This document shows positions 40,797 through 56,966 of a DNA stretch of 64,000 bases, in pieces. The stretch lies in the NCBI GenBank assembly GCA_902798825.1, contig CADBYI010000011.1:124001-188000 (forward strand), written 5' to 3'. Under the pieces are notes generated by a model, which worked only from the letters and a program-made list of their open reading frames with translations, was not told the DNA's origin and ran no database searches. The position numbers and the translations under genes are program-made. The stretch comes from an uncultured Eubacteriales bacterium. Lineage in GTDB: Bacteria; Bacillota; Clostridia; Christensenellales; CAG-138. Each line of letters starts with the position of its first letter. Positions within the stretch are counted from its first letter, which is position 1.

Positions 40797-40849
40797 CGGA
40801 AACCGACGCCCAGAAGATGAAATGACGCGCACCACAGGGGATGCGCGTC

Positions 40850-41039
40850 AGGCTGTCGAAAAAGGCGGCAGACCATTTGCGGCAAAGATGAACAAGGGGA
40901 TACAGGTAGGTAGAAATGGCGCAAACCGCCATTTCTTTTTAAAGATGCCGCAAATTAACGGCGTTTTCGCCCTCTCGCAGTACCTTTGTACAGCTTCGGG
41001 GCGAAGAACGCCGTTTCTGCCATCCTTTGCTGACAGCCT
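40850..41039 (-). ncRNA. Structured palindromic element with covarying stems, copy A
   Basis: 190 nt bounded by inverted ends AGGCTGTC / GACAGCCT. Read on the minus strand: linker AAAGGATGGCAGAA; stem ACGGCGTT/AACGCCGT with an inner CGCCC/GGGCG helix and GTAC/GTAC tip; stem TTTGCGGCA/TGCCGCAAA enclosing hairpin GAAATGGCG/CGCCATTTC; linker AAATGGTCTG. Each stem has a base-paired but different counterpart in copy B at 56096-56282. It is flanked by 14-bp direct repeats AAATGACGCGCACC (40820-40833 and 41045-41058), each part of a small hairpin. It fills the 349-base gap between the beta-propeller and udk genes, where I see no protein gene. Confidence 0.7.
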
Positions 41040-41088
41040 TCTCTAAATGACGCGCACCCTTTGAGGTGCGCGCCGTTATTCATACATC

Positions 41089-56000: not shown

Positions 56001-56095
56001 GGATCACGCCTCCCTGTGAAGATGGGTCCAGTATAGCACGAAACCCCTTGCCCCGCAACGGGCAGGAAAAAGCGGCGCATGCCGCGGACCACAAA

Positions 56096-56282
56096 GACTG
56101 TCAGAAAGGATGGCAGAAGCGGCGTTCTTCTTCCCGAAGCTGTGCTTCGCACCGCGAGAGGGAGAAAACGCCGCTAATTTGTGGCGTACAATCAAAAGAA
56201 ACGGCGTTGAAGGCGCCGTTTCTACCTGCCAGTATTCAATTAGAATAATCGCCACAAATGGTCTGGCGCCTTTATGACAGTC
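56096..56282 (+). ncRNA. Structured palindromic element with covarying stems, copy B
   Basis: 187 nt bounded by GACTGTCA / TGACAGTC. Same block order as copy A (40850-41039): linker AAAGGATGGCAGAA; stem GCGGCGTT/AACGCCGC with TTCCC/GGGAG inside and tip GTGC-TTC-GCAC; stem TTTGTGGCG/CGCCACAAA enclosing GAAACGGCG/CGCCGTTTC; linker AAATGGTCTG. It lies between the PIG-L start and the cyclophilin stop, ending four bases before that stop codon, on the strand opposite to both genes. No protein gene is seen in this 285-base gap. Confidence 0.7.
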
Positions 56283-56285
56283 GTC

Positions 56286-56966
56286 TTATTTCCCCGGAAG
56301 TTTCTCCGGCTCGCCGTATTCCACGCCCCAGGTCTCCACCCGGACGGTCTCCATGATCTGGTCCTTGTAGGGCTTGTCCCGGGAGTCGGTGGTGGTCTTG
56401 GCGATGGCGTCCACCACGTCCATGCCGGAGATCACCCGGCCGAAGGCGGCGTACTGGCCGTCCAGATACGTGCCGTCCTCGTGCATGATGAAGAACTGGC
56501 TGCCGGCGCTGTCGTAGGGCTGGGCCCGGGCCATGGACAGCACGCCCCGGACGTGGGAGATGTCGTTCTTCACGCCGTTGGCCGCAAACTCGCCCTTGAT
56601 GGAGTAGCCGGGTCCGCCGGTGCCCCTGCCGTCGGGGTCGCCGCCCTGGATCATGAAGCCCGTGATGACCCGATGGAAGATGAGGCCGTCATAGAAGCCG
56701 GCATTGGCCAGGGAGATAAAGTTCTTCACGCTCTCCGGCGCCGTCTCCGGGTACAGCTCCAGTTCAATGACGCCGCCGTCCTTCATGGTGATGGTGGCGA
56801 CGGGATGGGTCTTGTCCACTTCCGTATCCTCCTCCGTCTGGTCGGGGTCCGCCCCGGTGGTCTCGTTCGTCTTCGCCGCCTCGGCGGAAGCCTCCCCCGT
56901 CTTGCCGGCGCAGGCCAGGGACAGGGTCAGCAGGGCCGCCAGCAGCAGCACGATCAGCCTCTTCAC
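56286..56966 (-). CDS. Cyclophilin-type peptidyl-prolyl cis-trans isomerase, lipoprotein
   Basis: 226 residues: signal peptide with lipobox LSLAC (cysteine about 19), a short acidic linker, then a compact bacterial cyclophilin domain (about 58-226) with the core motifs FHRVITGFMIQGGDPDGRGTGG (core FHRVI and GGDPDGRGTGG, about 97-118), SMARAQPYDSAGSQFFIMH (core SAGSQFFI) and YAAFGRVISGMDVVD. It would assist folding of exported proteins outside the membrane. Confidence 0.92.
   Translation of the reverse strand: MKRLIVLLLAALLTLSLACAGKTGEASAEAAKTNETTGADPDQTEEDTEVDKTHPVATITMKDGGVIELELYPETAPESVKNFISLANAGFYDGLIFHRVITGFMIQGGDPDGRGTGGPGYSIKGEFAANGVKNDISHVRGVLSMARAQPYDSAGSQFFIMHEDGTYLDGQYAAFGRVISGMDVVDAIAKTTTDSRDKPYKDQIMETVRVETWGVEYGEPEKLPGK

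Follow-up and report, generated by a model that had tools for sequence, protein, structure and literature searches.

The window analyzed here, a 64,000-nt stretch of the genome designated G000, carries two ~190-nt folded sequences, copies A and B, for which the original prediction offered two alternatives, a functional RNA or a foldable mobile DNA. The question raised by this locus is which of the two accounts for a repeat of this kind. Both alternatives gained support from the analysis described below, which combined the search for further copies in related genomes with the comparison of their folds, flanks, and neighboring genes.

Structure of the two copies and covariation of their fold

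Both copies were located in the window, with the common block order and linkers first described for them, and their ends were corrected by 1–2 nt. They are 78% identical over ~190 nt, and each contains an exact occurrence of AAAGGATGGCAGAA; when up to two mismatches were allowed, this sequence gave 3 matches, compared with 0.3 expected. Copy B (positions 56095–56282, plus strand) scored 181 bits with covariance model R1 (CM R1), built from the copies of G000, and its folding energy of -90.9 kcal/mol (z = -8.5) was equaled by none of 200 shuffled sequences. Its outer stem P1 pairs positions 56096–56103 (GACTGTCA) with 56275–56282, and the 5′ strand of P1b (56105–56118) corresponds to the conserved AAAGGATGGCAGAA. 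The long arm P2 (56118–56175) contains a conserved internal loop (GAAGCTGT..CGCGAGAGG), and the 5′ strand of arm P5 (56176–56186, AATTTGTGGCG) has its partner at 56250–56259. The 3′ strands of P5, P1b, and P1 occupy positions 56250–56282, all of these parts being on the plus strand. Copy A, whose body lies on the minus strand (40850–41039), scored 223 bits with the same model. Among the related-species loci examined, no ortholog of copy A or copy B carrying the element was found.

The consensus fold predicted with RNAalifold from 11 copies of G000 comprises the two-part outer stem P1 and a three-way junction, whose arms are the long P2 and P5, the latter enclosing an inner hairpin. The compensatory stem differences originally noticed between A and B hold in these 11 copies and in 97 copies from related species. 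In the alignment of 97 copies (91 distinct), which was fitted to the covariance model, 94.8% of the cells in the 61 proposed pairs are paired, 47 of the 61 pairs show two-sided compensatory changes, and double-changed cells number 580, whereas shuffles gave 167 and slid partners no more than 67. When 80 copies were aligned by sequence alone, 4,481 of 4,968 cells paired, as against ~1,960 to 2,380 with slid partners. Thus, base pairing in the element is under selection, as had been proposed from two copies, because covariation extends over many species.

G-T cells outnumber A-C cells both in the model-fitted alignment (213 vs 64) and in the 80-copy, sequence-only alignment (228 vs 156). This excess indicates that it is probably the element's plus strand that folds, as RNA or possibly as single-stranded DNA. 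Moreover, at one orthologous site (L045/L070) the element is ~98% conserved, differing at four unpaired positions and at no pair, between flanks that are 86–90% identical; these observations lend support to the RNA alternative. At another site (L010/L022), 56 pairs are identical in spite of differences at 27 of 70 unpaired positions. Such in-place conservation could owe something to gene conversion or to repeated insertion at the same site.

Distribution of the family and insertion at terminators

A nucleotide search of G000 (2.28 Mb, 68 contigs) detected the element at 16 places, corresponding to at least 14 copies or pieces, and many more were present in relatives. Of 103 genomes of the taxonomic family that were searched with CM R1, 35 gave matches. 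These carriers comprise every one of the 12 genomes in the genus of G000, 22 of the 23 in a second genus, and one genome of a third genus, in which the match was weak. The multi-copy family deduced from only two copies is therefore large and dispersed. Those carrier contigs that have names are mainly metagenome assemblies of rumen and gut Clostridia. The earlier failure to recognize a known family was borne out, since no Rfam covariance model matched above its gathering score, also when 20 further loci with diverged copies were included. A phage or plasmid origin was considered and rejected, as no phage or plasmid record matched the element and five viral contigs picked by pattern failed CM R1. 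The literature on insertion into terminators yielded no description of such an element. Some copies (L014/L015, at C10:23124–23460 of G000, L281, L282, and L324) have the tip of the P2 arm interrupted by a GC-rich stretch of ~100–120 nt.

Four features emerged beyond the original prediction: the targeting of terminators, an extra 5′ hairpin, the division of the copies into two classes, and a predicted antisense terminator. The 5′ hairpin, CAGCnTGTCAAAA..TTTTGACAnGCTG followed by AGCAGGCTGTC, is present on many copies. In recently inserted copies it adds ~33 nt upstream of the ~190-nt body, giving a full unit of ~223–225 nt; copies A and B lack it. Carrier genomes contain its pattern, whereas the four non-carrier genomes tested do not. 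The two ends of the element are alike in an inverted-repeat-like manner, with CAGCnTGTCAAAA on the left and CAGnCTGTCGAAAA on the right, read inward. No gene was found inside the element.

Hairpin-bearing copies lie between two copies of one and the same host hairpin in 26 of 32 cases, compared with 0.12% of mismatched flank pairs, when target duplications are counted at a score of at least 12. The duplicated host hairpin is usually an intrinsic terminator, and the duplicated piece is the palindrome itself plus 0–3 nt, ranging from 14 bp (L292, AAGTATGATATACT) to 34 bp (L281). At the 3′ end of groEL, a lone terminator is present in nine sister species, whereas G000 has the element with two terminator copies; at the metK site, the element is missing from sister species. 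The single-terminator sites in the sisters, together with the duplications, demonstrate that these copies are insertions. The family is mobile, and the locus-specific target duplications and the empty site are what the mobile alternative of the original prediction called for. Copy A looks like an old class I copy, flanked on the minus strand by two host hairpins that represent a diverged target duplication, one on its 5′ side (41051–41073, GCGCGCACC..GGTGCGCG) and one on its 3′ side (40824–40849, GACGCGCA..TGCGCGTC).

These insertions provide a clear case of a mobile element that duplicates its target according to DNA structure instead of a fixed stagger, so that cruciform targeting can be put to a direct test. 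They also show that a repeat unmatched in Rfam, whose RNA-like fold is strongly selected, is mobile and has spread across two genera of rumen bacteria.

Class II copies and the predicted antisense terminator

Class II copies have neither the 5′ hairpin nor a target duplication. When 600 nt upstream were searched, a duplication accompanied 2 of 55 copies without the 5′ hairpin, both of them degraded class I copies, and even the near-identical class II copies of genome G038 had none. Taking genes as uncurated open frames, the distance between the right end of a class II copy and the opposing gene's stop codon is -3 to +6 nt in 26 of 50 cases; for class I copies it is mostly 27–48 nt. Copy B fits the class II pattern, its 3′ end lying 3 nt from the stop codon (56286–56288) of a cyclophilin-type prolyl isomerase gene (56286–56966, minus strand; Pfam PF00160, E = 2.3e-47). 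In G038, class II copies that closely resemble one another (at least 20, L351–L370) occupy repeat-rich intergenic regions and contig ends, and some are arranged in tandem, separated by short linkers such as GTCATA.

An A-rich run (at least 5 A in 8 nt) precedes the inner hairpin in 72 of 90 copies, and a T-rich run follows it on the plus strand in 2 of 90. In copy B, the conserved A-run (56190–56197) and the inner hairpin (56198–56222) appear on the minus strand as a hairpin with a T-run after it, and the terminator scan classified this segment (56190–56222) as resembling an intrinsic terminator. The element is accordingly predicted to carry an intrinsic terminator on its antisense strand, which a gene that ends on its 3′ side would encounter within the element. 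Such a mobile repeat suggests a route by which bacteria could acquire ready-made terminators at gene ends.

The position of class II copies at opposing stop codons, the antisense terminator motif, and the conservation of the L045/L070 copy above its flanks could also be accounted for by a regulatory or 3′-end RNA useful to the host (a terminator, an mRNA-protecting element, or a trans-acting RNA), whose functional state would be class II and whose spread would be a by-product. However, place and orientation vary widely among copies, clear in-place constraint was seen at one orthologous pair only, and the predicted terminator lies on the antisense strand, whereas the G-T bias indicates the sense strand. 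We therefore consider a host RNA unlikely as the main explanation.

Proposed mechanism and search for the moving enzyme

The explanation that we favor, with a probability of about 60%, is a non-autonomous element (~190 nt, or ~225 nt with the 5′ hairpin) whose insertion sites are palindromes, intrinsic terminators in most cases, and which is moved in trans and has a selected RNA-like fold. An enzyme supplied in trans would act on an extruded cruciform, joining the element's ends to both 3′ feet of this structure, and attack at these feet would yield a duplication equal to the palindrome, whatever its length. The sense-strand fold, as RNA or single-stranded DNA, would either be needed for movement or serve a separate function. 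Insertion would cost the host little, because the terminator is duplicated and the element brings a predicted antisense terminator of its own. With age, copies would shed their 5′ hairpin together with the terminator duplicates and remain as the 3′ end of a neighboring gene. Counting against this explanation are the class II copies, which have no duplication even when near-identical as in G038, the failure of the searches described below to find an enzyme with matching ends, and the fold, since ordinary miniature transposons are not known to require a conserved internal structure.

A more far-reaching version can be put forward only tentatively: the element may belong to a new kind of transposable element, in which the covarying RNA-like fold takes part in movement and an undescribed recombinase, trans-acting or host-encoded, reads extruded hairpins and duplicates exactly the palindrome, leaving a working terminator on each side.

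Three copies (L013, L224, and L231) are 5′-truncated or internally deleted with repeats on both sides, which is not expected of a two-ended transposase and likewise counts against the favored explanation. The 5′-truncated copies with flanking repeats, although few (L013, with a 21-nt direct repeat, and L224), suggested spread driven by a reverse transcriptase, that is, a SINE-like retroelement whose folded RNA would be copied into nicked terminators by an enzyme acting in trans; the G-T bias of the sense strand and the variable duplication length are consistent with this. The searches argued against it, since no RVT_1 protein was found in G000 or in 30 of the 35 carriers (genomes incomplete), the domain being present in 5 of 35 carriers vs 28 of 68 non-carriers, and four reverse transcriptases from carriers (L306, L310, L314, and L315) appear retron-like on reading of their sequences. 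Furthermore, a retroelement would have no need of inverted-repeat ends, and we regard a SINE-like origin as improbable. Three of these four reverse transcriptases share one type and have a C-terminal extension, and the fourth has a protease-like extension.

Among known systems, the REP/BIME palindromes of enterobacteria are multi-copy, folded intergenic repeats at gene 3′ ends that are moved in trans. The element resembles them in copy number, folding, and intergenic location at gene 3′ ends, and would share their movement in trans, but has a much larger structured body and a target duplication. Group IIC introns are structured RNA elements that insert at intrinsic terminators, as the element does. 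To our knowledge, introns make no target duplication, whereas the element duplicates its target; moreover, it has no Rfam intron match, and an intron reverse transcriptase is missing from most carriers. Bacterial MITEs are small, gene-free, and intergenic, with inverted-repeat ends, folding transcripts, target duplications, and many copies (PMC10969869). The element shares with them its small size, the absence of genes, the intergenic location, the inverted-repeat ends, the target duplication, and the copy number, but its duplication tracks the length of the palindrome instead of being a fixed number of bases, and its three-way-junction fold shows strong covariation. It also differs in having no detected parent: an end-pattern search of eight genomes gave no transposon with the same ends, and the 1.6 Mb of loci examined contained no longer unit in which such ends and a duplication occur together.

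Insertion sequence IS1272 also targets hairpin-forming inverted repeats (22–30 bp) near gene ends; it has its own transposase and replaces the target repeat, leaving no duplication (PMC5678879), whereas the element keeps and duplicates the hairpin. If the 5′ feet of the cruciform were attacked instead, the palindrome would be lost, an outcome that would agree with the reported replacement of repeats by IS1272 (PMC5678879). The element might alternatively descend, in miniature form, from an IS1182-type insertion sequence, since some members of that group target palindromes and a hairpin with a similar end type lies near a degenerate IS1182 transposase (L192). We regard this origin as improbable, and IS1182 was rejected as the driver: the transposase domain DDE_Tnp_1_6 (PF13751) is absent from G000 and all 12 genomes of the genus and occurs in only a few of the second genus, and intact IS1182 copies (L191 and L195) have other ends.

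A cargo-carrying autonomous form was considered for L012 and L016, which together make up one copy holding ~870 nt with a methyltransferase-like gene. This insert belongs instead to a second mobile family, because its ends also turn up at many sites beyond the element. The second family, with right end CTTGACARANCNCCTNY, repeatedly enters the element at one position (before GAANCCG) as well as other sites. It was observed at L012/L016 (the end of C50 and the start of C16 in G000), L145, L148, L071, L215, L321, L324, and L331; its cargo is the methyltransferase-like gene in G000 and a TnpV-like protein in L071, and the GA dinucleotide at its junction would fit a large serine recombinase.

Two further observations concern viral sequences. 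A viral contig (L241, IMG/VR 3300006201_000011) carries another element of ~160 nt with the same end type, flanked on both sides by the terminator hairpin GGGAGAGGTTAGCAAACCTCTCCC, and in a gut phage record (L371, MT838447.1, 4574–7606) a terminator-like hairpin is immediately followed by a solitary hairpin, CAGCCTGTCGAAAAAGCTTTTTCGACATGCTG.
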